Source: Planctomycetia bacterium (lineage in GTDB: Bacteria; Planctomycetota; Planctomycetia; Planctomycetales; Planctomycetaceae). From it: a stretch of 39,912 nucleotides of DNA. The translations under genes were made by a program, and so were the position numbers. Numbering within the stretch: the stretch's first letter is position 1; every line of letters starts with the position of its first letter. The stretch covers positions 1 through 39,912 of the forward strand of contig JACQFH010000183.1 of assembly GCA_016200145.1 (NCBI GenBank), given 5' to 3'. Below are positions 1 to 12,032 of the stretch, piece after piece. The notes beneath the pieces are model-generated. The model searched no databases, was not told the origin of the DNA, and saw nothing but the letters and a program-made list of their open reading frames with translations.

Positions 1-1
1 T

Positions 2-46
2 CCCCCTCACCCCTAACCCCTCTCCCGCCAGGGGAGAGGGGAACAG
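2..46. repeat. Intergenic palindromic repeat
   Basis: A C-rich direct-repeat segment leads into a hairpin with 10-bp arms, CCCCTCTCCC at 17-26 and its complement at 32-41, around a 5-base loop. There is no U-tract after it, so it does not look like an intrinsic terminator. Repeats of this type are dispersed in many GC-rich genomes. It may continue beyond the left edge. Confidence 0.7.
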
Positions 47-208
47 GATTATTGTTGCGGGCCGTCTTTTGGAAAGCGATGCGATCAGCCAAGCGGCCGG
101 GAGGGCACTCTTGCGCTGCCACCGTCAAATGTCGACACCACCCGCGCCACAAACGGCTTGCCCGAACGCCCCGCCGGCGATTACAGTCTGTGACACGCGG
201 AGCAGCGC

Positions 209-742
209 ATGAACTTTTCCGAATTCGAAGACCGGCGCCGATTTCAGCAGGCCTGGGAAGCGGTGCGCATTGCCCGCGCGGTGGAATACTCGCTGTTCAC
301 ATTCGGCACGTCCGATCTACCTTATTTTCTGGTGTGTGACGCACGGCCGCCGCAGCAGACGGTGACGATCACCCGCGGCGACGTGCGGATCACTCGCCCG
401 CTGATCATTACACCCGACAACGTCCACCCTGAATTCCGCAATTTCTTCGAGAACGACGACGAAGGACTGCTGGCCGAGTTTTTCATCCAGCGGACGGCCG
501 CCTTTTCCAACTTGCAGTTCGAGAACCAGCACGGACCGGCCAGGATCGTCACCGACAGCGTCGACGAAGCCGTGGCCAAGCTCAACCGCCAGCTCGACCA
601 GGACGAAGAAGACCGGGTCGCCATCCTCTGCGCCCCGGCCAGCCTGGCGGGATTCGCCGCATTCCGCTACGCCGCCGAGCGGATGATGCGCAGCGTCCCC
701 GACAACATCCAGGAACTCCGCGAGCGCGGGCTGCTGCCGTAG
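209..742 (+). CDS. Conserved hypothetical protein, 177 aa
   Basis: The ATG at 209 is preceded by GGAG about six bases upstream, which supports this start. The product is soluble and acidic with no signal peptide or membrane segment. No catalytic motif was recognised. It ends with the motif MRSVPDNIQELRERGLLP, and a second copy of this ending is found at 10558-10614, so the gene belongs to a family with at least one decayed relative nearby. The strand is opposite to that of the small membrane-protein genes that follow. Function unknown. Confidence 0.7.
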   Translation: MNFSEFEDRRRFQQAWEAVRIARAVEYSLFTFGTSDLPYFLVCDARPPQQTVTITRGDVRITRPLIITPDNVHPEFRNFFENDDEGLLAEFFIQRTAAFSNLQFENQHGPARIVTDSVDEAVAKLNRQLDQDEEDRVAILCAPASLAGFAAFRYAAERMMRSVPDNIQELRERGLLP

Positions 743-843
743 GTCCGGTCTTTGCAGCAGACGATTCAAGCGTCGCGCGGGATTTTTACCAAAGAATGAC
801 GCATTCCGGGAGTGGAATCCCAACATCGGTGGCCTGCCAGCAT

Positions 844-906
844 GTGACTTCCGAACATGCGTTCGCTCTGAAATCGACGGAATGTCTGGGATGGCGACGT
901 AAGTGG
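844..906. repeat. Composite repeat: leader box plus downstream box
   Basis: This site contains two boxes found elsewhere in the 0.8-5.1 kb region. The first is GTGACTTCCGAACATGC (844-860), which recurs at 1754, 4435 and 5075. The second starts with GACGGAATGTCTGGGATGGC (874-906) and recurs at 3186, 3597, 3986 and 4497. Here it lies just beyond the stop of the minus-strand gene ending at 937. Confidence 0.75.
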
Positions 907-936
907 CCGCGAGCGATGAGCTGGCCTGACAGCACT

Positions 937-1293
937 TCAGTTCCACCAGGCGATTCCGTCAGGGCCGACATCGGCCCGAAAGTCGTTCGGTCCTTTGCCG
1001 AGTCCTAGATTCGCGTACCAGTTTATCGCTGATCTCCACGAATCTGGCACAAACGCCGTCGAACGGAAAATCGGCGAATAGAATCTCTGGACTGGCGGGC
1101 CGTTGAGTTCTCCGTATCTGCCGTTGTACCAAACGGCCGGCCCGAAGCTCAGCGGATACACCACAAGCAGCATTGCTGCCAGCCCCACCAGCGTCCACTT
1201 CGCCCACCGCTCCCGCCGGTTCACGATCCGTACCGTCAGCCAGACGCAGAACGCGGCAAACGCGACGGCCAGGGTGGGGAGGAGGATGGTCAT
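937..1293 (-). CDS. Small membrane protein, array member A (118 aa)
   Basis: The first ~45 residues contain a hydrophobic segment (ILLPTLAVAFAAFCVWLTV), a basic motif RIVNRRERWAKWT, and a second hydrophobic stretch ending in YPLSFGP. This part is nearly identical in protein and DNA to genes starting at 3588, 3970 and 4904. The remaining ~65 residues differ from those paralogs, apart from an aromatic 'INWYANL' motif near the C-terminus shared with the 4536-4904 product. Two membrane segments are predicted with a short outside tail. The stop is followed by the ~30-bp repeat at 874-906. No strong ribosome binding site is visible upstream. Function unknown. Confidence 0.65.
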   Translation of the reverse strand: MTILLPTLAVAFAAFCVWLTVRIVNRRERWAKWTLVGLAAMLLVVYPLSFGPAVWYNGRYGELNGPPVQRFYSPIFRSTAFVPDSWRSAINWYANLGLGKGPNDFRADVGPDGIAWWN

Positions 1294-1326
1294 GACGAGA
1301 AGTTCTGTTTTGGAATCGCCAGCCCG

Positions 1327-1686
1327 TCAATTCGGCGGCACTCGGATTTCAACGACCTGGCCATTGGCGAAACTATATTTCACATGTCCCCAGACCTGCG
1401 GTCGCCACTTCCGGTCGAGCCGGTGAATCGGGCGAAACAACCACTTCGCGGCGTCGCCTCCATACGAATACGTGAGCACGGTCACGTCTACGGCGCAAAA
1501 CCCTACGCTGCCGTCCATTCTGCGTTCCAAGCAATGCGCCCAAAGCCCCGGTTCTGGTTTGGCGAGGGCGAAGTACGCCCCCACGTAAGAAATTCCAATT
1601 ACGAGCAGAGCAACTGCAGTTGCCAAAAATACGCGTACTATTCCGTTTGGCTTCTTGTTGGGGGGCTTCGGCTGCATGCCCGGCAT
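1327..1686 (-). CDS. Small membrane-anchored protein (119 aa)
   Basis: The start at 1686 (MPGMQPKPPNKK) is preferred over an upstream ATG at 1731, because the upstream part lies in a repeated leader sequence also found before genes at 4382 and 5032. The product has a basic N-terminus, one membrane segment (about residues 16-36) and an outside domain containing two cysteines and the phrase WLFRPIHRLDRKWRP. That phrase loosely resembles the tail segment of the neighbouring array proteins (for example IYLPVGRVYRAAGGRD). The gene lies 33 bases upstream of the next minus-strand gene (1293). Function unknown. Confidence 0.6.
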   Translation of the reverse strand: MPGMQPKPPNKKPNGIVRVFLATAVALLVIGISYVGAYFALAKPEPGLWAHCLERRMDGSVGFCAVDVTVLTYSYGGDAAKWLFRPIHRLDRKWRPQVWGHVKYSFANGQVVEIRVPPN

Positions 1687-1770
1687 TTTACCCGCGGTGG
1701 AGCGGGGGAGGGAAGGCGAATTGCACGTCAAACAGGTTTCGCCCGCTCAGCGAGTGACTTCCGAACACGC
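1687..1770 (-). repeat. Shared leader repeat, copy 1
   Basis: This is the segment upstream of the 1686 start. It carries GTGACTTCCGAACACGC at 1754-1770 and a GC-rich stretch just before the start codon. Comparable leaders precede the starts at 4382 and 5032. It may carry the promoter or translation leader of these genes, but no clear -10/-35 pair was identified. Confidence 0.55.
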
Positions 1771-1823
1771 TGACAGGTCGCTTTCCGAATAGCAGGACAG
1801 AGCATTCCCACGATACCCGCTTG

Positions 1824-2897
1824 CTATTCCTCCAATGCCAGCTGCTTCTCCAATTCCAACTGCTTCTGCAATGCCAGCTGCTTCCGAAGCACCCGCAACA
1901 TCTGAGTGCGGCCGTTATACTCCGGCTGCGACTCAAGTTCAACGATTTTTTGTTCAAGCTCGTGCCGCCGATTGAACAATTTCGGCAAGGAACGCACGAG
2001 TTCGGTCCAGCCGGTCGCAGTGACTTGAGTTGCATCGGCGAATTCCAGGTTGACGAAGGACTTTAGGTTCGGCAAGGACGAATCCGTGACCTGCGTTCCG
2101 TTGAGGCCGAGGGCCTTGAGTCCTGTCAAGCCAACCAGGTGCGACAACTCTGGGTCCCCGACCCTCGTTAGGCGGAGATCGAGCCGTTCGAGATTCGGCA
2201 GGGTGCGCAAGTGCACGAGTCCCGCGCCGGTTATTTGTGTACCACGAAGGCTTAGCTCCCGCAGACTTTGCAGGGGGCGAAGCGACGCCAACCCGGCATC
2301 GGTCACTTGAGTATTACTTAGATCGAGATTGTGAAGTCGAACAAGTTTCCCAGCGTGCTCAAGGCCCGCATCCGAGATTTGTGAGCCATTTAGATCCAGG
2401 TGTTGTAAGCTTGTCATCCTCGAAAGATTCGCCAATCCGGCATCCGTGATCGGCGGACAGCCCTCAAGGTAGACCGCATGGAGCGGGATAAACGCTTTGT
2501 AGTGCTCAGGGCCCCGACTGACATACCCGATCATCTCTCGACCGAGGTCGAGGCGCTTCGGCCGCAACAATGCGACGAAGGCCAGATCTGCGTCTGTACA
2601 GTCCGTTCCCGCCAGCTCAACTGATTCCACGACATCAAACAGCTTCGTCCATTCGGACCCAATATTGTGGCGCAACCAATCTGGCTTGCATGGCGTTGTC
2701 GCGACTTTTCCACCCAGACCTTCAATATGCCGAATCGCAGACAATTGCTGGTATCCAGTTGCCCCTCGCCATGCGCACACGAATCCAAGAACCGCCAACA
2801 TCGCGACGAACATCCGTAGCGACACCGGTATACAGCGCCGGCGCCGCGGCGGCGTGTCGGTCGTCGTGTCGGTCGTCGGGCCTGTCTGGGTCGTCAT
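1824..2897 (-). CDS. Membrane-anchored leucine-rich repeat protein (357 aa)
   Basis: The N-terminus is Thr-rich and basic (PPRRRRCIPVSLR), followed by one transmembrane segment at about residues 27-46. Leucine-rich repeats follow from about residue 85 to 285, with the ribonuclease-inhibitor-like pattern 'ITDAGLxxLxxLxxLxxLDLxxTQ' common in planctomycetes. The protein is a paralog of the one encoded at 25513-26595, sharing the anchor, a 'GG..A.......WLR' segment and the repeats. The C-terminus is unusual: it ends in three hexapeptides of the type KQLALQ, encoded by an 18-bp tandem repeat at 1830-1883. LRR proteins of this kind are assumed to bind proteins at the cell envelope; the partner is unknown. 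Confidence 0.8.
   Translation of the reverse strand: MTTQTGPTTDTTTDTPPRRRRCIPVSLRMFVAMLAVLGFVCAWRGATGYQQLSAIRHIEGLGGKVATTPCKPDWLRHNIGSEWTKLFDVVESVELAGTDCTDADLAFVALLRPKRLDLGREMIGYVSRGPEHYKAFIPLHAVYLEGCPPITDAGLANLSRMTSLQHLDLNGSQISDAGLEHAGKLVRLHNLDLSNTQVTDAGLASLRPLQSLRELSLRGTQITGAGLVHLRTLPNLERLDLRLTRVGDPELSHLVGLTGLKALGLNGTQVTDSSLPNLKSFVNLEFADATQVTATGWTELVRSLPKLFNRRHELEQKIVELESQPEYNGRTQMLRVLRKQLALQKQLELEKQLALEE
1830..1883. repeat. 18-bp tandem repeat, three units, inside coding sequence
   Basis: On the minus strand three consecutive 18-base units encode the hexapeptides KQLALQ, KQLELE and KQLALE just before the stop codon of the LRR gene. Units differ at a few bases. This can gain or lose units without changing frame. 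Confidence 0.8.
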
Positions 2898-3185
2898 GCT
2901 GTCAGTTTACCGCGGCGGGCTGCCGGAATGAATCCGAATCTAAGGCCCTTCGCCGAACATGGCTCCGTTCCCAGCCCCGGCCCGGCACGCATCCTTCGAC
3001 GGCGACAGGCTGCATTCGCCTGCAACAGCCCCGTCGAACGCAGGCCGCCGGGGCCTTCACGTGGTGAGTGTGGCCTGCACGGCGCCCAGGACCAGGACGG
3101 CGGCGGCGGGATGGGCCAGGGCGCTAGAGGCAGGCACGTTGCCCTGCACCTGAACGTCGTGGCGGGGTTGTGAACGGCTTGAACT
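2898..3185. other. Intergenic region without a recognised gene
   Basis: About 330 bases separate the LRR gene start (2897) from the next coding remnant (3228). Short open frames exist on both strands but none has a recognisable domain, ribosome binding site or conserved motif. A minus-strand frame reads an Ala/Val-rich hydrophobic stretch near 3060-3140, which could be a fragment of a lost gene, but this is not supported by any match that can be named. Confidence 0.4.
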
Positions 3186-3216
3186 CGGCAGAATGGCTGG
3201 GAGGGCGACGTGAGCG
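3186..3216. repeat. Downstream box, degenerate copy
   Basis: A diverged copy of the ~30-bp repeat (here GAATGGCTGGGAGGGCGACG) lies 11 bases beyond the stop of the frameshifted array member at 3228. Confidence 0.5.
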
Positions 3217-3227
3217 AGCCTGCGTTG

Positions 3228-3588
3228 CTATCTCTCCGATTTGACAAATGAGAAATTGGAATAGCGCCCGACCGGCACCACGATGACAACCGCCTTAGGG
3301 AGCCACCATCTCAAATATCGTCCAGTCGCGACGTATCCACCCGGCATGCTCCGGGCTATCCAGCCAAGTGGACCGTAGATGCGCGGCGCTTTCACGGCCG
3401 GCTTATCGTGATCGAGTATCCAGCATACAGGCCCCGATTGACAGTGGATATCCAATCAGGACCGATATTGCGACCACCCCCGCCAGCGTCCACTTCGCCC
3501 ACCGCTCCCACCGGTTCACAATCCGCACCGTCAGCCAGACGCAGAACGCGGCGAAGGCGACGGCCAGGGCGGGGAGGAGGATGTTCAT
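3228..3588 (-). pseudogene. Frameshifted array member B, small membrane protein
   Basis: Starting at 3588 the frame reads the conserved anchor of the array (MNILLPALAVAFAAFCVWL, then RIVNRWERWAKWT) up to LIGYPLSIG, then goes off frame. The other reading frame continues with PVCWILDHDKP and ends at 3228. Intact paralogs read 'SFGPxxW' at this point, so removing one base from the run of four C (plus strand) at 3432-3435 restores a 119-residue protein with the family's usual length. Either a real single-base insertion or a homopolymer sequencing error. The restored tail contains PRIYGPLGWIARSM, like PRIYIPIGW in the 4047-4382 gene. Confidence 0.75.
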
Positions 3589-3596
3589 GGGAAAGT

Positions 3597-3626
3597 TGAC
3601 GGAATGTCTGGGATGGCGACGCAAGT
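3597..3626. repeat. Downstream box, copy 3
   Basis: This copy, with GACGGAATGTCTGGGATGGC, fills the gap between the stop of array member C (3629) and the start of member B (3588). It is therefore both the 3' flank of one unit and the 5' flank of the next. Confidence 0.8.
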
Positions 3627-3628
3627 AG

Positions 3629-3970
3629 CTATTGATGCATTCCGTCGTCCGGCCGGCAAAACGGCCGAAGCGTATCAAGCCATAGATTTCCATACCAGAC
3701 ACACGCGTGCTCAATGGTCGGCGATCTGGCCTGAGCTGCATACAGTGGGTCGTACAGGTCGTGGATGCGACCAGCGGCTCTTGCTGGAACGTACCCGCTT
3801 GAAAACAGGAGCCAATAAACAGGCCCGAAACTCGCGACATACAGCACCGGCAGCCCGACCACCGTCACCGCGGTCCACTTCGCCCACCGCTCCCGCCGGT
3901 TCACGATCCGCACCGTCAGCCAGATGCAGACGGCGGCGAAGGAGACGGCCAGGGTGGGGAGGAGGATCAT
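3629..3970 (-). CDS. Small membrane protein, array member C (113 aa)
   Basis: The start at 3970 (MILLPTLAVSFAAVCIWLTV) aligns with the starts of the paralogs; an upstream in-frame ATG at 4096 would read through a repeat box and is rejected. Two membrane segments flank the basic motif RIVNRRERWAKWT, and the second ends in YVASFGPVYW. The C-terminal ~60 residues (GYVPARAAGRIHDLYDPLY and onward) do not resemble those of members A or B beyond a 'WYGNL' motif. Spacing to the next unit is 40 bases, filled by the repeat at 3597-3626. Function unknown. Confidence 0.65.
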   Translation of the reverse strand: MILLPTLAVSFAAVCIWLTVRIVNRRERWAKWTAVTVVGLPVLYVASFGPVYWLLFSSGYVPARAAGRIHDLYDPLYAAQARSPTIEHACVWYGNLWLDTLRPFCRPDDGMHQ

Positions 3971-3985
3971 TCGGTGACTTTGAAA

Positions 3986-4018
3986 TCGACGGAATGTCTG
4001 GGATCGAGACGCAAGTGG
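3986..4018. repeat. Downstream box, copy 4
   Basis: The repeat reads ATCGACGGAATGTCTGGGAT followed by a slightly diverged end. It lies between the start of member C (3970) and the stop of the next gene (4047). Confidence 0.75.
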
Positions 4019-4046
4019 ACGGTCAAAATGGCGGCAACGCCGGTGC

Positions 4047-4382
4047 TCAGTATGTTCCGAACATCTGGTCGTGACGATCATCTCCGCATGGGACAAAGAC
4101 GATACACCTGTGGGGCATGAACAGATTGCCGAATGTGCGGATCACTTCGCGACACTTCTCCGATCGTTTCATGGTCCATCCGATCGGGATATAAATCCTC
4201 GGAACTGTCGGCATTTCGGTTGCATCGTCAATCAGCTCGCAGCGAACCGCAATCCCACAGGCCACCATGAAACTCAGCGCATAAAGCAGCGGCAGTAGCG
4301 CTACCGTGGTAATCCAGAATCGTCGCGACCGGCACCCCACCCAGTAAAGCGGTCCGACTTGCTTTTTCAGTCGTTCGTCCAT
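4047..4382 (-). CDS. Small membrane protein, divergent array member (111 aa)
   Basis: This product has its own N-terminus (MDERLKKQVGPLYWVGCRSR) instead of the common anchor. From about residue 23 it carries a membrane segment, LLPLLYALSFMVACG, that aligns with 'LPVLYVASFGPACWW' of member D. The tail PRIYIPIGWTMKRSEK resembles PRIYGPLGWIARSM in the frameshifted member. It therefore looks like a recombinant or divergent unit of the same family. The start at 4382 follows a copy of the shared leader repeat. Function unknown. Confidence 0.6.
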   Translation of the reverse strand: MDERLKKQVGPLYWVGCRSRRFWITTVALLPLLYALSFMVACGIAVRCELIDDATEMPTVPRIYIPIGWTMKRSEKCREVIRTFGNLFMPHRCIVFVPCGDDRHDQMFGTY

Positions 4383-4451
4383 GACGCGGGCATAATACCG
4401 CCGTGGATCAGGGGCGAGAAGGCGAACCTGCGCTGTGACTTCCGAACACGC
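4383..4451 (-). repeat. Shared leader repeat, copy 2
   Basis: Upstream of the 4382 start this segment contains GAACCTGCGCTGTGACTTCC and continues into CGAACACGC at 4443-4451. The same block occurs before 5032 and, more diverged, before 1686. It may drive expression of these units. Confidence 0.6.
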
Positions 4452-4496
4452 CTGACGAAGCCCGCTGGTTCCAGAACAACCTGACAGATTGGCGGA

Positions 4497-4528
4497 TCGA
4501 CGGAAAGTCTGGGATGGCGACGTAAGTC
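4497..4528. repeat. Downstream box, copy 5
   Basis: The repeat (GACGGAAAGTCTGGGATGGC and following bases) starts eight bases beyond the stop of member D at 4536, the same relative position as the other copies. Confidence 0.8.
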
Positions 4529-4535
4529 CGTATTC

Positions 4536-4904
4536 TCAGTCCTGTCGTTGGAAGAGGACAAGCTCGAATCGTGGCCCATACAGAACACACACATGCGCGT
4601 GCCGCCGGGTGGCATACCAGTTGATCGCTTGCCCGATCCATGAGTCGCGCCCTCCTGCTGCACGATAGACTCGGCCGACCGGGAGGTAGATTTCTGGACA
4701 ATCCATTAACTTAGATACCGGCAATTCTGTCGCGAACCACCAGCACGCCGGCCCGAAACTCGCGACATACAACACCGGCACCCCGATCACCGCCACCAGC
4801 GTCCACTTCGCCCACCTCTCCCGCCTGTTGATGATCCGCACCGTCAGCCAGATGCAGAACGCGGCGAAGGCGACGGCCAGGGTGGGTAGGAGGAATGTCA
4901 TCAT
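4536..4904 (-). CDS. Small membrane protein, array member D (122 aa)
   Basis: The start at 4904 lies in the overlap ATGATGA with the stop of the upstream 43-residue gene, a classic translational coupling arrangement. A second ATG follows directly at 4901. The common anchor (FLLPTLAVAFAAFCIWLTV), basic motif RIINRRERWAKWT and YVASFGPACWW are present. The tail (about residues 60-122) contains PEIYLPVGRVYRAAGGRDSW and 'INWYATRR', partly like member A. Two membrane segments are predicted. Function unknown. Confidence 0.7.
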   Translation of the reverse strand: MMTFLLPTLAVAFAAFCIWLTVRIINRRERWAKWTLVAVIGVPVLYVASFGPACWWFATELPVSKLMDCPEIYLPVGRVYRAAGGRDSWIGQAINWYATRRHAHVCVLYGPRFELVLFQRQD

Positions 4905-5032
4905 GTTATGCGCAGCATGTCTCGGATATATGCAATCGCATGGCCCAGATACGCCACAGCGAATACCGTCACGCCGATCAGGATTTGGACCCAAGCCGGG
5001 ATGCGTCTATAGCGATCACCCATGCCCGGCAT
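4901..5032 (-). CDS. Small single-pass membrane peptide (43 aa)
   Basis: A short basic N-terminus (MPGMGDRYRRIPAW) is followed by one membrane segment (VQILIGVTVFAVAYLGHAIAY). The start at 5032 is chosen because it mirrors the MPGM start at 1686 and follows the same leader repeat; translation could also begin at 5023. The stop overlaps the start of the next gene by four bases, so the two are probably co-translated. The pairing suggests the peptide works with the 122-residue membrane protein, but no function can be named. Confidence 0.55.
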   Translation of the reverse strand: MPGMGDRYRRIPAWVQILIGVTVFAVAYLGHAIAYIRDMLRIT

Positions 5033-5090
5033 CTTACCCGCCGCGTAGCGGGAGCGGGAAGCCGAACCTGCGCTGTCACTTCCGAACACT
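5033..5090 (-). repeat. Shared leader repeat, copy 3
   Basis: This segment upstream of the 5032 start contains GAACCTGCGCTGTCACTTCC followed by GAACACT, matching the leader before 4382. It is the likely 5' control region of the coupled pair 5032-4536. Confidence 0.6.
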
Positions 5091-5121
5091 CGAACACGAC
5101 TGACGTCGGCCGGATTGACGC

Positions 5122-5795
5122 TCAGACTGGCTTCCTGCCGTACCAGCACGCTTCAGGAGTCGAGGCCCGAACGGAGCGGGAGAACAGGACCCCGCCAGCC
5201 GAAGCCGCGACGATCAGGAAACCCGCGGGAATCTCCATGCCGTAGGCTACCTGTGCCAACGTATCGATCCCCAGAAAAAGTATGATGAAGGTGGCGGTGC
5301 CAATCGGCAGCCAGACTGCCCCCGCCTCATTGCTCTGCCCGGCACATTTCGGGGGCCAGATCTTCTGGCGCCGTGAGCGGTGCAGCCCGGAATCGATCCA
5401 GACTCGGCATCCGTGACGCCGGGCCACAAGGCAGGCGACGAGGGAACAAACGGAATGGACGGCAACTCCTCCCAGCAGCGCGGCCGGGACTTTCCAGTCG
5501 ACCGGCGCGTGCCAGCCGAAGGGGCTGTCGACGAACACCATCCTCGCGAAACACAGAACCAGGCGCAGGGCGCGCCGCGAAGTCGGTCGGGATCGCAGCG
5601 ACGCAACCAGTTCGCTGTCAGAAAATCGTTTACGGCAAATACGCCATACACGATCGCAGCCGTGATGAGGAGAAGCCCCCTGGATTCGGGCACGACCAGA
5701 AAAACAGTAATCAGAAGGGCACAGACGACGGGCGCAGAGGTGGCCGATTGTGGCCTGAAAAGCTCCCGTGCCGTTTTCTCAGTGCCGATTGACAT
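5122..5795 (-). pseudogene. Frameshifted polytopic membrane protein
   Basis: From the ATG at 5795 (MSIGTEKTARELF) the frame encodes two membrane segments (PVVCALLITVFLVV and LLLITAAIVYGVFAV) and then RRCDPDRL. There the good frame changes: the second frame continues as RRALRLVLCFARMVFVDSPF and three more hydrophobic segments to the stop at 5122. Adding one base near 5575-5582 joins them into a protein of about 224 residues with about five membrane segments. It is either a decayed gene or an assembly error in a GC-rich stretch. A GTG at 5813 is an alternative start. Family not recognised. Confidence 0.65.
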
Positions 5796-5920
5796 GATCT
5801 GCCCGAAAATCACGAAGAGTATTGTTCACCGTACCACGCCCATCTGTCGGAATAAATGCCAAAGAGCCGTGCTTGCCGCGACTTCCGAGAAACCGGGTAC
5901 AAGCCGGCCGTCTGCGCTGG

Positions 5921-6337
5921 TTACAACTTTTTGAGCGACACCGTTGGTTCCAAAACGGTGCCGTCCATTAGAACGAACACTCGCAATCTGTGCGGCATTC
6001 CGGCCAGCGGGTTCCCGTCACTCCACTCGTATGTGATCGCCCACATTGCTCGTTTGGGGTCATCCTCGAATTGAATCGACGCAGAAACGCGTCGCCAATT
6101 CCAACCCTTTTCGTCTTTGACAAGTTTGGCTCGCATCTTATCGGCGAGCGTGATCGCCTTCCGGGCCGGCAGAGGAGGGTTGTCGGTATCTTCGCTCCAT
6201 TCTGGGGTCTTGGCAAGGTCCTCACTGGTAAGGTGCGTCACATACGTCTTCCCGAACGCATAGCTGGAGAACCGCATTTCGTTGCAGCACGCAACTGTGG
6301 GCACAAGGGCGATGAGTATTGCAGAAATTGCGCGCAT
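5921..6337 (-). CDS. Small exported hypothetical protein (138 aa)
   Basis: The ATG at 6337 is preceded by GGAG about six bases upstream and begins a signal peptide (MRAISAILIALVPTVACC), so it is preferred over an upstream in-frame ATG at 6445. The adjacent cysteines at residues 17-18 could allow lipid attachment, although the lipobox is not typical. The mature part is charged and contains the phrases WNWRRVSASIQFEDDPKRAMW and ITYEWSDGNPL. No known family was recognised. Confidence 0.65.
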   Translation of the reverse strand: MRAISAILIALVPTVACCNEMRFSSYAFGKTYVTHLTSEDLAKTPEWSEDTDNPPLPARKAITLADKMRAKLVKDEKGWNWRRVSASIQFEDDPKRAMWAITYEWSDGNPLAGMPHRLRVFVLMDGTVLEPTVSLKKL

Positions 6338-6478
6338 CGCGGATCTCCAGGGAGTGAAAATGGGGCGCTTGTTAACTACGAAAATCGCCAGAGTTTCCAT
6401 GCTGTCAGCTAGTTTACCGGGCGGCCGAGTCGGAATGAATGCCAATTAACCAGTCGCAGGACAGCGCATTGGGAAGCA

Positions 6479-6916
6479 TCAGCGCCCGCCCGACGCGAAC
6501 ACGGTCTGCACCTTCCAGGTTCTTGGGAGCAATTGCGGCCTCGCCGTCCATTCGGTAGGAATCAAACCGAATGGACTCGCACCGGTCGCGTCCGCCTGCC
6601 AGAGAACGAGAGAAAAGGGGGATTGGGGTGCTCTTGCCGAAATGCTCTGCAAGGACGCCCCCTGCGTACTGTCGATTGAGCTGCATACGTCCGGCTGTGA
6701 TTGCATGAGGATTCGCTGAAATGCGTCTTTTTCAGGGCGTCGTGCGGTCTTCCAAGAATCAGTCGTCAATTGCGCTGGCGCTCGAACCGCGCATGATTCG
6801 GGTCCAAACTGCGCATGCGAATCTTCGACGCTGACGTTCGAAAAGCCGATATAGCTGCCCGCTGCCGCAAAACTGACCAGCACGATTAATGACCCAGCCA
6901 GCGCGATTCGCGACAT
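6479..6916 (-). CDS. Small exported or anchored hypothetical protein (145 aa)
   Basis: The start at 6916 is supported by the strong ribosome binding site GGAGGA about nine bases upstream. The N-terminus is a hydrophobic signal or anchor (MSRIALAGSLIVLVSFAAAG). The rest is low in recognisable motifs, with two cysteines. It lies in the same orientation as its neighbours on both sides. Function unknown. Confidence 0.6.
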   Translation of the reverse strand: MSRIALAGSLIVLVSFAAAGSYIGFSNVSVEDSHAQFGPESCAVRAPAQLTTDSWKTARRPEKDAFQRILMQSQPDVCSSIDSTQGASLQSISARAPQSPFSLVLWQADATGASPFGLIPTEWTARPQLLPRTWKVQTVFASGGR

Positions 6917-6962
6917 TGGTCATCCTCCGATGGATTCGTGTATCATTCGCTGTGACTGTGGG

Positions 6963-7415
6963 TTACCGTGATGGTTCGCCCCGCCGCCACTCGAAATGTT
7001 GCCCGTCTACGTCAATCCCGCGCGGCATCAGATCGAAAACCGTCTGGCCTAGCCGAATTGTGAATCTTCCCGGCATGAGTGTCGTATCCGCGAACTCGAT
7101 GCGCCCGCCAGGAATCGTAACCGACGGGGAATCGAGTACGACGACTTGCCGCCCCTCGAAATGGCGATCGATGTCGACCGGAAAAGACTCCGAGACGAGG
7201 CCGGTCCGAGTCTGCATGAATTGAACAGTCGCACGATGGTCTTCGGCCTCGACGACCATTTGGAATGGCGGCCCGTTGAGCGATCGCCAAAATCCGGCAG
7301 TGACGATTGAGAGCAAAACGAGCCCGCCGCCAAGCAGCGCGACGACAGCCGTCTTTTTGCCGGGACAGACCGAAATTCGGCGGGGTTCCGGTGCGATCGA
7401 ATCGGAAACGGTCAT
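6963..7415 (-). CDS. Single-pass membrane protein (150 aa)
   Basis: The start at 7415 (MTVSDSIAPEPRR) gives a short basic N-terminus followed by one membrane segment (TAVVALLGGGLVLLSIVTAGFW) at about residues 23-44. The outside part of about 100 residues is beta-rich by pattern and contains VTIPGGRIEFADTTLMPGRF. No known family was recognised. An ATG at 7460 would add 15 residues; no ribosome binding site separates the two choices. Confidence 0.6.
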   Translation of the reverse strand: MTVSDSIAPEPRRISVCPGKKTAVVALLGGGLVLLSIVTAGFWRSLNGPPFQMVVEAEDHRATVQFMQTRTGLVSESFPVDIDRHFEGRQVVVLDSPSVTIPGGRIEFADTTLMPGRFTIRLGQTVFDLMPRGIDVDGQHFEWRRGEPSR

Positions 7416-7553
7416 CGCATCAGGATACTCCCGGCGCGTAGGAGGGTAAATCCCAGTCACATGTGCTGTCGCGTGCAGTTCCCCAGATTGATTTGTCCGT
7501 GGGTGGTTAGCGCTTTATGATGCTTGAAACGATTTCCGGTTTCGAGGGTGGCC

Positions 7554-9755
7554 ATGCCAGCAAATCGTGCCTCGCGCGGAGTTCCCCTCCCCACGTTCGG
7601 GCAGTGGCTGGTGATCGCCGCGGCGCTTGGCGCCGCCTGTTTCGTCTGGTGGGAGCTGCGGGGGCCCCGAACCGACTCTGCCGTGAGCCTGGGCGGGGCT
7701 GAATACGCTCCGAACACTGCGGCCTTTGAGAACCTTCGCGAGTTCGAATCTCTCGCCCGCACCGGCGCCCACGGCGTGCCTGCCCTGGTCGCAGCACTGG
7801 CCGATGCGAATCCCCGGATGCGCCGCAACGCCCTGATGGCTCTGCGACTGATCGGTCCGGAAGCGGGCGAGGCGCTCGCTCATGTTCGCGAACGGCTGAC
7901 CGATGAAGATGAACGTGTACGAGCGGTCGCGGTCGATACCTATTGGCGTATCCGGCGTGATCCCGATGATGTTGCGGCAGCCGTGGCCCCCCTGCTGGGT
8001 GATCGTGACGCCCAAGTCCGGTTTGCGACAGCCAGCGTTTTGGAAACAATCGGGCCGCCGGCAATCGGGCCGCTGGCCGAGGCGCTCACCAGCGACGGTC
8101 GTGAAGCCGCCATCCCCGCTTTGAAGTCTCTGCGACAAATCGGCTGGGACGGATCGCAAATGGCGATCGAAGACGCCGTGCGTGCCCGCCTGGACGATGG
8201 CGAAGCGCGTGTCGAAGCGTTGCTGACGCTAGCAGCCTGGGGCCACCCCACTGCCTTGGACATCAGGGAGATGCTGCATCACAAGGAACCGGCAGGTGGC
8301 CCGGGGACCAATCCACCAGGCGAGACCAATCTTCACGAAATGGCCCTCCGGGCAATCATTCGGCTCGGACCGGACGCTGCCGAGAATCTGAACGACGTTG
8401 TGGACCTGCTCACAGAGCGCCTCGCCAGGGACTCGCGTGCTCCTGTGTGGAATTCGGCACTTGCAGCGCTGCGAGCCATGCAGTTCGCGGCTCGTCCCGC
8501 CGCGCCGCGGCTGCTGCAACTCGCGAATGACAATCAGGATTATCGCCGGCTCGACTTGGGGTGGACACTTCTGGCAATCGGTGCCGACCCGCAGGAGATC
8601 ATCCGCATTGTAGTGCCGCTGCTCCATCACAAAGATTCCGATCTGTCCTTTGGTGCGGGGCGGTTGTGCGCAATTGCCAGCCCGGAAGACGCCAGGCAAC
8701 AAGTGTCGCTGCTGATCCCGCGCTTGGCCCCGGAGAAAATCGTTTTTGATCGGACAGCCCAGAATGCCGTCTGGGGATTGGCGCCGTGTGCACAGGAAGC
8801 GATCCCGGCGCTATGCCGGCTTCTCGAAAGCAACCAGCCCATTGTCGCACAGACCGCGGCTAAGACACTCAGCGACATGGGCCATGAGGCTGAACCGGCG
8901 ATCCCGATACTGTTGGTGCAGCTTGCGCGGGGTCCCGCAGCCGACAAAGATGCGGCGCGCGCAGCGTTTTGCGAGGCGCTCGGAAAGATCGGACCAGCCG
9001 CTCGCAGCGCGGTTCCGCACCTGGTCGCGGAGTTGAACAATGCACGCCTTTCACCTCCTCCGGCCAGCAATCGTGCTACGACAGCTCGTTCAGTTGTTTC
9101 ATCCGGCCAGCGTCAGGTCTCCGCCGCGCTGCGGGCTCTGATTCGGATCGGAGATTTCGCTCCCGATGTGATCGTCGCAGTGCGCAGGCATTTGGCCAAC
9201 GAAAACGACTCGTTGGTGGCGTTGAGAGCCCTCAGGCAAATGACTCCCGATTCCCCCGAGGTTCTCAGTGATCATTTGAATTGCCTGCGCGACAACCGCT
9301 GGTCGAGCAGCCGTATCGAGGTGATGCTCGCGATCGGTCGGCTTCCCGGCGAGCGACTGGAGGCAGTCGCTCCGCTGTCCACCCTGCTGACCGAAAGGGC
9401 GCCGGAAATCCGAAAGGCAGCGGCGTGGTCTCTCGGGAAGATCGGTCCCAATGCCAGGAACGCGCTGCCTGACCTGCGAGAAGCCCTGAATGCATGGGAG
9501 AATTCTTTGTATACGGCACGGTCGCAGAGTTCCCTGCGGCGGCCGGGGCTGAACGACGATCCTCGAAGTCGGTTCGAATCGGGGCGCTGGGGGGACTCGG
9601 AAGAGCTTTCCCCAGGACAAACGGACGACCCCCACTTCCACGAGAAATCGGTTCGACGAGTCGTGCTCGAAGCGATCGCCAAGATTGAAACAGGGTCAAC
9701 TGAATCGAACCCATCCTCGGAAAGGGCATCGCCGGGCGCAAAGTCGTCGCCCTAA
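7554..9755 (+). CDS. Membrane-anchored HEAT-repeat protein (733 aa)
   Basis: The ATG at 7554 has GAGGG upstream; a TTG at 7524 would extend it by ten residues. One membrane segment (about residues 18-35, WLVIAAALGAACFVWWEL) anchors a long array of HEAT/PBS-lyase-like helical repeats. Typical units read 'VPALVAALADANPRMRRNALMALRLIGPEA' and 'APEIRKAAAWSLGKIGPNARNALPDL', spread from about residue 60 to 640. The C-terminal ~90 residues are Ser/Arg-rich and partly disordered. Such proteins usually act as protein-binding scaffolds; no enzyme domain is present. It is transcribed away from the minus-strand block. Confidence 0.85.
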   Translation: MPANRASRGVPLPTFGQWLVIAAALGAACFVWWELRGPRTDSAVSLGGAEYAPNTAAFENLREFESLARTGAHGVPALVAALADANPRMRRNALMALRLIGPEAGEALAHVRERLTDEDERVRAVAVDTYWRIRRDPDDVAAAVAPLLGDRDAQVRFATASVLETIGPPAIGPLAEALTSDGREAAIPALKSLRQIGWDGSQMAIEDAVRARLDDGEARVEALLTLAAWGHPTALDIREMLHHKEPAGGPGTNPPGETNLHEMALRAIIRLGPDAAENLNDVVDLLTERLARDSRAPVWNSALAALRAMQFAARPAAPRLLQLANDNQDYRRLDLGWTLLAIGADPQEIIRIVVPLLHHKDSDLSFGAGRLCAIASPEDARQQVSLLIPRLAPEKIVFDRTAQNAVWGLAPCAQEAIPALCRLLESNQPIVAQTAAKTLSDMGHEAEPAIPILLVQLARGPAADKDAARAAFCEALGKIGPAARSAVPHLVAELNNARLSPPPASNRATTARSVVSSGQRQVSAALRALIRIGDFAPDVIVAVRRHLANENDSLVALRALRQMTPDSPEVLSDHLNCLRDNRWSSSRIEVMLAIGRLPGERLEAVAPLSTLLTERAPEIRKAAAWSLGKIGPNARNALPDLREALNAWENSLYTARSQSSLRRPGLNDDPRSRFESGRWGDSEELSPGQTDDPHFHEKSVRRVVLEAIAKIETGSTESNPSSERASPGAKSSP

Positions 9756-9890
9756 TCATGAACGTGCCGCGAGGTCGTGCCTTTGCTAATGGCAATGGCA
9801 TCATTCGTCGGCGGTCTTATCGGGGAAGGGCACTTCACGGTCTTAGCCTGTGCAGGTAAATTGTGAACCCCACGTAACGCGCCTCCGGCG

Positions 9891-10284
9891 TCACCACCCA
9901 GAACGATCGTTCTTCCGCTCGACCCACAGCTCCGGCAGGGCTTTTTGCAGTTTTCGGACGCCGGCCAGCGTGACCTTCGTGTTGTACAGGTCCAGACGTC
10001 GCAGGCCGGTCAGGCCCGCCATGTGGGGCACGCTGGCGTCGGTGATCGTCGGCCCCCCGAGGTTGAGCGTCTTCAGATTCTTGATCTCCGCCAGGTCCCC
10101 CAGGCCGGCGTCGGTGATCTTTTGTGCCGCTCAGGTCGAGTGTCGTCAGGCGGGTCAGGTTTCCGATGGACGTCAGCCCGGCGTCGGAGATGCCGGTGTA
10201 CCCGACCGACAAAGTCTCCAGGCTCTCGATGACCGCCAGTCGCTGCATCCCCCGATTTGTGATCGGTGTGTACCTCTGTTCGTG
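9891..10284 (-). pseudogene. Truncated, frameshifted leucine-rich repeat gene
   Basis: The minus strand reads LRR units beginning at about 10272 (TPITNRGMQRLAVIESLETL) and continuing to LDLSGTK. An extra base in an A-run (near 10125-10132) then shifts the frame. With it removed the reading continues as ITDAGLGDLAEIKNLKTLNL through further repeats to a typical planctomycete LRR ending (LQKALPELWVERKNDRSGW) and a TGA at 9891. There is no N-terminus: the frame runs into a TGA at 10285-10287, at the edge of an inverted repeat. The gene is therefore both truncated and shifted and is a remnant. Confidence 0.8.
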
Positions 10285-10359
10285 TCAACTCCGGGCGAAC
10301 GATTTTTATGATAACGAGGTCGAGTCCGGCGTGGCAGGCGAGTTGACCCCGGAGTTGAC
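10284..10359. repeat. 12-bp inverted repeat at the truncation point
   Basis: GTCAACTCCGGG at 10284-10295 is matched by its exact complement CCCGGAGTTGAC at 10348-10359. The left arm begins just where the LRR remnant loses its frame. It may mark the scar of an insertion or deletion. Confidence 0.65.
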
Positions 10360-10424
10360 ATGGGGAATCAGCCGGGGTGAGCACTCATTGCGAGCAACTT
10401 GGAAGTTGACGGGTGAACACCGAC

Positions 10425-10450
10425 CGGCTGAAGCCGGTACTACGAACGCG
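10425..10450. repeat. Dispersed repeat with short hairpin, copy 1
   Basis: The sequence CGGCTGAAGCCGGTACTACG and the following bases contain the hairpin CCGGCTGAAGCCGG. A related copy is at 10703-10729 (CGGCTTGAAGGCGGTACTAG). The two copies bracket the gene remnant at 10558-10614. Confidence 0.5.
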
Positions 10451-10557
10451 CGATCGATCGAAACCAATTCCGCGCCGATCTTGTTTGTCGGGCTGACACC
10501 GCGGGGAGGGCATTGCGCGGTAGGGGGGTCACCGCGGCTCGCTGGCGGCCGATCGGG

Positions 10558-10614
10558 ATGCGCCGCGCCCCCGACAACATCCGGGTGTTTCGCGAGCGGG
10601 GCCTGTTGCCGTAG
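10558..10614 (+). pseudogene. Remnant of a paralog of the 209-742 gene (C-terminal end only)
   Basis: The frame reads MRRAPDNIRVFRERGLLP and then TAG. This matches the last 18 residues and stop of the gene at 209-742 (MRSVPDNIQELRERGLLP) at 13 of 18 positions. Upstream sequence does not resemble the rest of that gene in any frame that was read, so only the 3' end survives. It sits in a decayed 450-base region between the LRR remnant and the PQQ-like gene, together with dispersed repeats. Confidence 0.65.
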
Positions 10615-10702
10615 GATTATGCAGACCCCACGTTGCTTGAAAAACACACCGTCGGACCACCGCAGTTCGCACCGTCGCCGCTGGCTCCGGGTTAAACAAG
10701 GG

Positions 10703-10729
10703 CGGCTTGAAGGCGGTACTAGCAGCGCG
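10703..10729. repeat. Dispersed repeat, copy 2
   Basis: A diverged copy of the element at 10425-10450, ending at the stop codon of the PQQ-like gene on the other strand. Confidence 0.45.
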
Positions 10730-10733
10730 GGAT

Positions 10734-12032
10734 TTACTTGGCAGCCGTCGCGTCTTTGGATCCGAAGCAATACAGGTGCTTGGCGCCACGGACGAGCAAG
10801 CGCCCGTCGGCCACTGCGGGACTCGCCTTCACGCCCTCATCAAGTTTGCTGCTATGGAGCAGGTTAAAATTCGGATCGGCGGCGAAGACGAAGATCGTTC
10901 CGTTTTCCGTGAACGCGTAGACGCGGTCCCCGACCATTACAGGCGAGGCGGTGACGTCGCCCCCTTCGAGCCGATTCAGCCACACTTTCCGACCGGTTTT
11001 CGCATGGAAGCAGCCGGCGATCCCCTTGTCGTTGATAAAGTACAGATTCTCACCGCGACTCAGCATGCAGGGAACGTACGGAAAGTCTTTTAACGTCTCC
11101 CAGGCAAATTCAGGCTGGCCCCCGGAGCCTTTTCCGTGCAGGTTGACGGCAACGGCGTGGCGATCCCCGGGGCCATTTCCTCCGCTGAAGAAGACGAAAT
11201 CCTGGCAGACAATCGGCGATCCAACGGTGCGCAGTTCCAGTTTGTTGCTTTTCCAGAGCCAGCTCCAATGTTCGGCGCCGCTCGCCGGATCGTATCCCGA
11301 AATGCCCTGAGTGCTCGCAATCAGCACTTCGGGTTCGTGGCCCTCGCGTTCCACCACGATGGGCGTGGAATACGAAGCCTTGTGCGGCTCGCGCGTCTTC
11401 CTCCAGACCACGGCGCCCGTCGTGGAGTCCAGCGCCACGACCTCGGCAAAGCCGTCCTGATCGTTCGCGATGATCACGTGTTTGCCGACGACGACAGGAG
11501 AGTGCCCGGCCCCATGCTGGCTCTTGAACGGCCCCAGGTCTCTTGTCCAGGCATGACGCCCGTCGGAATCGTAGTATGCTGAGACAAAAAGTTTCTGGCC
11601 GTCCCAGAACGGCATGAAGACGCGTACGCCATCTACCGCGGCGGAGCACGACGCCAGCGTATTCTTGGGATGCGTCGTCGCCGTAGTACCCGGCGCCGAT
11701 TTGCTCCACAGCGTCTTCCCGCCGGCCAGGTCAATGCACAGCAGAAATCGTTCCGTGCCGTCTTCGCTGGCGGTCTGCAGAAAGATGCGACCGTTCGCGA
11801 CGATCGGAGACGAATTGCCCGCCCCCGGGATGGCGACTTTCCACAGCAGGTTCTTCGATTCGCCTACTTCGACGGGAACGCCCTCGTCCTTCGATTCACC
11901 AGTGCCGTTTGGCCCGCGAAAACGCGGCCAGTCAGAGGCTGTCGCGGCCGACGTAACAAGGACACAGAAGCTTCCCAGCACAAGAGTACGAATACAGAGA
12001 GCTGTATTAGCAAGCAGTGCGGCAACGGGCAT
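10734..12032 (-). CDS. Exported PQQ-like beta-propeller repeat protein (432 aa)
   Basis: The start at 12032 has AGGGGA upstream and encodes a signal peptide of about 32 residues ending in SAATASDWPRFRGPNG. 'DWPRFRGPNGTGES' is the hallmark beginning of planctomycete PQQ-binding-like propellers. Blades follow with repeated patterns such as 'GRIFLQTASEDGTERFLLCIDLAGGKTLW', 'VVALDSTTGAVVWRKT', 'CFHAKTGRKVWLNRL' and 'RVYAFTENGTIFVFAAD', about seven in all, filling the protein. The fold is shared by BamB and quinoprotein dehydrogenases, but no dehydrogenase-specific cofactor loop was identified, so the role (scaffold or enzyme) is open. It acts outside the cytoplasmic membrane. Confidence 0.85.
   Translation of the reverse strand: MPVAALLANTALCIRTLVLGSFCVLVTSAATASDWPRFRGPNGTGESKDEGVPVEVGESKNLLWKVAIPGAGNSSPIVANGRIFLQTASEDGTERFLLCIDLAGGKTLWSKSAPGTTATTHPKNTLASCSAAVDGVRVFMPFWDGQKLFVSAYYDSDGRHAWTRDLGPFKSQHGAGHSPVVVGKHVIIANDQDGFAEVVALDSTTGAVVWRKTREPHKASYSTPIVVEREGHEPEVLIASTQGISGYDPASGAEHWSWLWKSNKLELRTVGSPIVCQDFVFFSGGNGPGDRHAVAVNLHGKGSGGQPEFAWETLKDFPYVPCMLSRGENLYFINDKGIAGCFHAKTGRKVWLNRLEGGDVTASPVMVGDRVYAFTENGTIFVFAADPNFNLLHSSKLDEGVKASPAVADGRLLVRGAKHLYCFGSKDATAAK

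Follow-up and report, generated by a model that had tools for sequence, protein, structure and literature searches.

In a 39,912-nucleotide stretch of a Planctomycetia bacterium genome (assembly GCA_016200145.1, contig JACQFH010000183.1; hereafter the window, contig C490 of our genome G000), an array of small minus-strand genes turned out to belong to a large family of predicted membrane proteins whose parts appear to have different histories. Four of these genes, named here by their starts at 1293, 3588, 3970 and 4904, have in common about 110 bp of 5′ coding DNA, the head, which encodes a membrane helix and a basic loop; a second membrane segment and a variable tail follow, and past the stop lies a conserved element that we call R. 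We regard the family, with somewhat better than even confidence, as a mosaic made by intragenic recombination between the constant head and the constant 3′ element. The first-pass annotation of this DNA, which had proposed gene conversion or modular exchange of outside-facing tails on a fixed anchor, was right in direction, probably wrong about one gene (4382) and incomplete on mechanism.

Comparison within the array bears out common 5′ DNA and different C-terminal halves. The DNA repeat D1 has four copies of 145 nt, the others being 73 to 90% identical to the reference copy. On aligned codons, the first 36 codons are 89% identical at the DNA level (six pairs); the figure is 63% for the second membrane segment and 43% for the tail (three tail pairs, the frameshifted gene 3588 being excluded there). 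Over 108 ungapped bases the six head pairs range from 84 to 93%, a clear similarity for which the earlier wording "almost identical" was slightly strong. At identical residues, the four genes use the same codon at 132 of 159 positions in the head, 34 of 50 in the second segment and 14 of 47 in the tail. Gene 3588 is frameshifted (3403-3588), its tail continuing in another frame to 3228, which may be real or an assembly error. A fifth gene, 4382, has another N-terminus and, as first described, the same second segment and tail: it matches the profile of these two parts (C490:4116-4307, E 4.7e-18), of which it is itself one row. Repeats flanking the units, also noted at the outset, are present, R sitting 7 to 37 bases past the end of each of the five genes (for 3588, measured from the shifted-frame end) and a second repeat, P1, occurring at three places (Table 1). 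The array genes encode 61 to 122 amino acids (aa); none of the five has a Pfam family above the curated cut-off, none of those scanned has an NCBIfam family above it, and window positions 1-12000 gave no Rfam match at gathering scores.

The cassette-like pattern is real but not confined to the array: it is found genome-wide. A 155-bp head query (E up to 0.001) gave at least 31 DNA matches in the own genome, 40 of the 87 first candidates being scored, and a 23-bp head core at up to three mismatches gave 26, on 22 contigs, plus nine in the sister genome G001 of the same genus, with none for the reversed control. With the whole 4904 protein as query, 47 matches came from the own genome (E up to 1) and 20 from G001 (E up to 0.01). 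From 81 places listed by tblastn we took 57 copies (41 own, 16 from G001), excluding weak, cut-off and out-of-genus ones; C110, whose contig begins inside the head, was among the places left out. Each copy was scored against a consensus of ten, and the 21 scoring at least 0.80 formed the close set, with the truncated copy C572 excluded; this cut is arbitrary, because scores run from 0.47 to 0.95 without a gap.

Along the close copies, from both genomes and aligned ungapped (210 pairs), identity forms a step instead of falling evenly along the gene, as the first-pass annotation had anticipated. It is 25 to 27% in each 12-base bin from -120 to 0, jumps from 25% to 74% at the ATG, remains at 74 to 90% over positions 0 to 108, drops to 39 to 63% up to 168 and is 25 to 28% beyond; the tails differ by indels as well as substitutions. 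In 16 own-genome copies (120 pairs), the same-codon rate at identical residues was 0.74 in heads, 0.64 in second segments and 0.33 in tails, compared with about 0.36 expected by chance from codon usage. Synonymous sites thus agree among heads and are random among tails, which we read as heads having a more recent common DNA ancestry than their tails; as first argued for overall DNA identity, simple duplication and drift would not give such a contrast. To judge from these codons, the difference is not explained by selection on the peptide of a gene inherited as one piece.

The 3′ ends of the copies are conserved as well. R, about ACTTACGTCGCCATCCCAGACATTCCGTCGA (roughly 28 bp in the alignment), has 12 matches at up to three mismatches in the own genome and none for the reversed control; ten of them are downstream of head genes or of gene 4382, and the remaining two are C327 and C368:11309. 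Among the 57 copies, R (up to six mismatches, ungapped) lies downstream of 12 of the 21 close ones and of one of the 36 others, across two tail families, with C706, which has an R-like stretch, and C135 of G001, which has a weaker one, both scored as lacking it. It also follows C110 and gene 4382, neither among the 57. Shuffled R motifs gave 0.4 matches on average in 248.5 kb of fetched sequence.

Between these ends stand different tails: an A family, with Y.P and WY motifs, and a small B family, of which four members were seen. Two B tails stand between a head and R: that of C368 follows a head 94% identical to the consensus and precedes an exact R, and that of C726 of G001 follows a head scoring 0.81 and precedes an R with five mismatches. 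The A and B profiles did not match (hhalign probability 2.8%), the B profile having four rows, all of them members by construction. Within A, the second-segment subtypes LYV.S/T and YPLS both occur on heads that are 92% identical (C194 and 1293), and both are also seen in genes without a head, in this genome or in relatives. The parts that follow heads are A, B or unclassified, and truncated heads, by eye, run into other sequence (C572, C401, C387, C138, C516 and C350:3225). Taken with the sharp edge at the ATG, this variety would also suit a spread of heads alone, a terminal reassortment in which illegitimate recombination puts copies of short 5′ pieces ahead of other open reading frames (ORFs) and R is an unrelated 3′ signal. 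We think this improbable: R goes with the close heads, so the 3′ ends are common to the copies too, the upstream DNA does not travel along, and truncated copies may be decayed genes.

A second alternative retains duplication of whole genes and adds strong selection, with purifying selection on protein and mRNA preserving the heads, the tails diverging fast and no exchange at all. Copies with A tails are indeed homologous over their full length, B might be diverged A, and heads keep their codons better between the two species (same-codon rate 0.64) than two orthologous flanking genes do (0.53 and 0.46). We nevertheless find this account unlikely. It sits badly with synonymous sites that agree among heads and are random among tails, and with the older members, which have the same residues at codons 15 to 36 in near-random codons: the same-codon rate there is 0.70 among the 21 close copies, 0.40 among 18 older ones and 0.46 between the two sets, ruling out a codon constraint on heads in every family member. 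C368, which joins a B tail to a near-consensus head and an exact R, likewise speaks against it.

Homologous exchange limited to the head and the 3′ element is, we think, the likeliest route. A unit would comprise the start codon, a head (first helix and basic loop), a second helix, a tail predicted to face the periplasm and R past the stop; heads and R would have a recent DNA ancestry across many loci, and tails would be drawn from an older, diverse pool. This scheme builds on heads far more similar at synonymous sites than tails and sharply bounded at the ATG, on R occurring mainly with close heads and enclosing A and B tails behind the same head, and on A tails that exist without a head in the own genome and in other genera. 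Units may have entered behind genes unrelated to them, their start often overlapping the preceding stop as ATGA, and exchange of head or tail segments by RecA-type homologous recombination or conversion, using head and R, may have followed. Such exchange would account for the step, the random tails, the common R and the different tails between the same ends. Conceivably the tail does the work of the protein and is selected to be diverse, as it might be in defence or in immunity to agents that act on the envelope, with the head as an interchangeable membrane anchor. Exchange or head homogenisation is favoured over duplication and drift, in keeping with the earlier suggestion; the process may be conversion of heads or replacement of tails, the recombination test in the head being weak and no tail donor having been found among the loci compared.

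Several points weigh against recombination between head and R. Tests for recombination inside the head gave weak results, with p 0.016-0.084 in two loose sets, 0.20-0.93 in a tight own-genome set and 0.026-0.33 in a tight two-genome set. Among the fetched loci, to which tail comparison was confined apart from a whole-own-genome protein search with the 4904 gene, no near-identical tail was seen on two different heads and no swap was caught. The close set was picked by DNA similarity; the codon test within the window was not so picked, but is small, and the tail codon count partly rests on uncertain alignment, because tails align at about 25-32% identity. Since heads between the species exceed both orthologs in codon conservation, codon-level constraint or lateral exchange is possible. 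B could be a far-diverged A, given a common F/Y.P..W.. motif, the weak A score of one B gene (C575 of G001, E 0.046) and the four-row B profile. R may be merely a conserved signal of the 3′ untranslated region, and homologous exchange alone leaves the first arrival of units at new loci unexplained. Both genomes are fragmented assemblies, the own one comprising 742 contigs (8.28 Mb).

Comparison with the sister genome gave no close counterpart of the tails among the fetched loci, the best match by E-value reaching 31% over 42 aa. Species-specific concerted evolution was not seen: all eight sister heads have an own-genome head as nearest neighbour, in a set in which own heads are also more numerous (22 versus 8).

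Searching for the anchor across genomes, we found the head (first 51 residues, E up to 1e-5) in 4 of 170 family genomes, own included. Two of the four belong to this genus; single copies occur in G129 (63% over 46 residues; its tail is A-like and its start promoter-like) and in G188 (43% over 42). In a first survey the whole protein matched in 5 of 59 genomes, own included, weakly so outside the genus (E 1.5e-6 to 0.003): the match covers the second segment and tail in G007 and G030, and residues 5-81 at 38% in G009. The A tail domain, by comparison, was present in 29 of the 59, own included. At ten A-gene loci in other genomes, six read clearly headless and four have an N-terminus that is unusual or not clearly readable. 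Because the readable relatives in other genera are without a head, we take gene 4382, initially described as the recombined gene, to represent the older form, and from these comparisons we take the A tail domain to be old and the head to be a later, nearly genus-restricted addition. In G030, which represents a different genus of the family, the A tail has 18 matches. Three stand side by side on contig C147, where the two genes read have no head; this is perhaps an independent expansion.

Recombinase remnants lie close to some family members. In C327, C706 and C295 (L120, L138 and L070), fragments from the C-terminal part of a tyrosine recombinase directly adjoin, tail to tail, either R or a family gene's end, C327 having been inspected because R was present there; we treat these remnants as a lead, not proof. 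The one full-length relative seen, on contig C180 (L222:2527-3360) beside a large serine recombinase (named by eye), has no R within the 200 downstream bases inspected. In a 560-kb sample taken as background there were one full-length recombinase and one remnant, both on one contig and neither with R in the 200 bases behind. A 143-bp stretch common to the downstream regions of C706 and C135 of G001 was rejected as synteny; it is a recombinase fragment. Remnants of a second tyrosine-recombinase type (by eye) lie near a head gene in C726 of G001 (L079) and near a head fragment in C138 of G000 (L075).

Such remnants, together with the rarity of a promoter-like TA...T box 5 to 9 bases 5′ of the start in close copies (4 of 21, versus 16 of 36 others), the frequent position of R at the end and the direct repeats of a host gene's 3′ end that bound the array stretch, might suggest cassettes moved by a site-specific recombinase acting at R or the head. 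We rate this as very improbable, as R has no inverted symmetry by eye, the 200 bases inspected behind the C180 enzyme gene hold no R, no recombinase was recognised among the part of the stretch's ORFs scanned with Pfam, and in viral contigs neither a head relative nor an exact R was found. A long shot of equal standing would make head and R the two ends of an undescribed mobile cassette, a promoterless ORF entering behind genes at an ATGA junction and swapping its middle from the tail pool, possibly served by that tyrosine recombinase.

Family proteins are small, mostly 95-145 aa. In the 39 scanned, hydrophobic segments numbered two in 30, one in six and three in three. From hydropathy and the positive-inside rule, most are predicted to be two-helix inner-membrane hairpins with the basic loop of the head, RIVNRRERWAKW, in the cytoplasm and the tail outside, which agrees with the outside-facing tails first proposed. 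A structure model of 4904 from a four-row alignment was poor (predicted local distance difference test 53.6, predicted template modelling score 0.29, with nothing but helices) and was set aside.

On its two sides the array is bordered by gene 209-742 and by a PQQ-propeller gene (10734-12032). In G001 the aligned parts of these two genes are separated by about 50 bp, so that nothing corresponding to the array stands at the equivalent position there. The final 73 bp of gene 209-742 occur a second time, 81% identical, as a direct repeat on the far side; because this 3′-end repeat bounds a stretch absent from the sister, about 9.8 kb was inserted here or lost in G001. The stretch resembles an island inserted at a gene's 3′ end, loss in the sister being another possibility. 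Pfam recognised a leucine-rich repeat (LRR) gene and a HEAT gene inside it, several other ORFs among those scanned having no match. A search of the sister genome for empty sites of C64 and C350 found no syntenic place. Window positions 1-67 hold a C-rich repeat with relatives at several places in G001, and other loci, by eye, have dispersed intergenic repeats too.

Upstream of the starts, an ATG-started ORF of at least 60 codons ends in the head's ATGA in 7 of the 21 close copies, with two and one in the other frames, and 35 other copies have no such bias (1, 3 and 3). Sorted by eye, there are at least three conserved leaderless-looking promoter types (P1, P2 and P3), in which a TA...T box lies a few bases ahead of the ATG. 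Such stretches lie upstream of family genes, for example in C593, C610, C706, C113 and C231 and in the window at 5016-5100, and the types seem to be common to different genes.

Table 1. Features of the array and its borders in window coordinates.
Feature	Position	Strand	Basis
Head module of gene 4904 (start codon, first membrane helix, basic loop)	4794..4901	-	DNA/codon comparison
Gene 4904: second membrane segment and variable A-type tail	4536..4793	-	
R element downstream of gene 4904	4499..4522	-	
Unrelated small upstream ORF (40 aa), its TGA overlapping the ATG of gene 4904	4901..5023	-	
P1 promoter-like repeat, ending near an ATG (leaderless type, by eye); similar pieces in sister genome	5016..5100	-	
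Gene 4382: A-type tail gene without head, a form known from other genera	4047..4382	-	
P1 repeat 5′ of gene 4382	4389..4449	-	
R element downstream of gene 4382	3988..4011	-	
Head module of gene 3970	3866..3970	-	
Gene 3970: second membrane segment and variable tail	3629..3865	-	
R element downstream of gene 3970	3598..3621	-	
Head module of gene 3588	3481..3588	-	
Remainder of gene 3588, frameshifted; A-type tail in another frame	3228..3480	-	
R element (4 mismatches) downstream of gene 3588	3187..3210	-	
P1-start gene with B-type tail, without head; directly 5′ of gene 1293	1327..1674	-	
P1 repeat 5′ of the B-type gene	1675..1720	-	
Head module of gene 1293	1186..1293	-	
Gene 1293: second membrane segment and variable tail	937..1185	-	
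R element downstream of gene 1293	876..899	-	
3′ end of conserved gene 209-742; left direct-repeat copy bounding the stretch that the sister genome lacks	671..743	+	
Second copy (81%) of the 3′ end of gene 209-742; right edge of the stretch	10545..10615	+	

A literature search, covering the terms used and the open literature, found no paper on this gene family. Constant-variable-constant architectures are known mainly from large toxins and antigens; here one is seen in very small membrane proteins of environmental planctomycetes. Its synonymous-identity step at the start codon is measurable, which makes conversion, tail replacement and selection directly testable against each other in close strains, and the family, unannotated and fast-turning, may have defence or envelope functions.

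Among known systems, the mycobacterial PE/PPE proteins likewise form a large family with conserved N-terminal domains, in which recombination, according to parts of the literature on them, contributes to variation. The proteins are unrelated, no PE/PPE motif is present here, and we know of no R-like 3′ element in that family. A shufflon has one constant gene with invertible alternative C-terminal segments; here, in contrast, each copy has its own locus (the 26 core matches on 22 own-genome contigs). Diversity-generating retroelements work with a reverse transcriptase and a template repeat; the tails here differ by indels in addition to substitutions. Integron cassettes, which go with an IntI-type integrase and an attI platform, are short, often promoterless ORFs followed by a short conserved element, attC, of 57-141 bp with inverted core motifs. 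The present units resemble them as short ORFs, often without a promoter box, that precede a conserved element, but they are dispersed over many contigs, R is about 28 bp without attC core motifs (by eye), and it is the 5′ coding part that is constant.

In terminal reassortment, a common N-terminal segment becomes fused to different C-termini, and promoter and secretion signal travel with the N-terminus. The term, used for type III effectors, appears in two passages of PMC5895054. Here, too, a common N-terminal segment precedes different C-termini, the A and B tails, which may be two families (profiles unmatched) or one (E of 0.046 for the A score of one B gene), but the DNA 5′ of the ATG is unrelated (25-27% from -120 to 0) and the 3′ flank is often common. 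Rhs cores are very large and carry RHS/YD repeats. According to passages of PMC2935791, Rhs genes combine a conserved N-terminal part with evolutionarily decoupled C-termini, homologous recombination being the proposed driver, and core and C-termini are decoupled in our family as well. Unlike Rhs, the array genes encode 61-122 aa, with no toxin domain found by Pfam in the five of them, and the constant head has 36 codons, occurs at dozens of loci and is matched by a conserved element past the stop.

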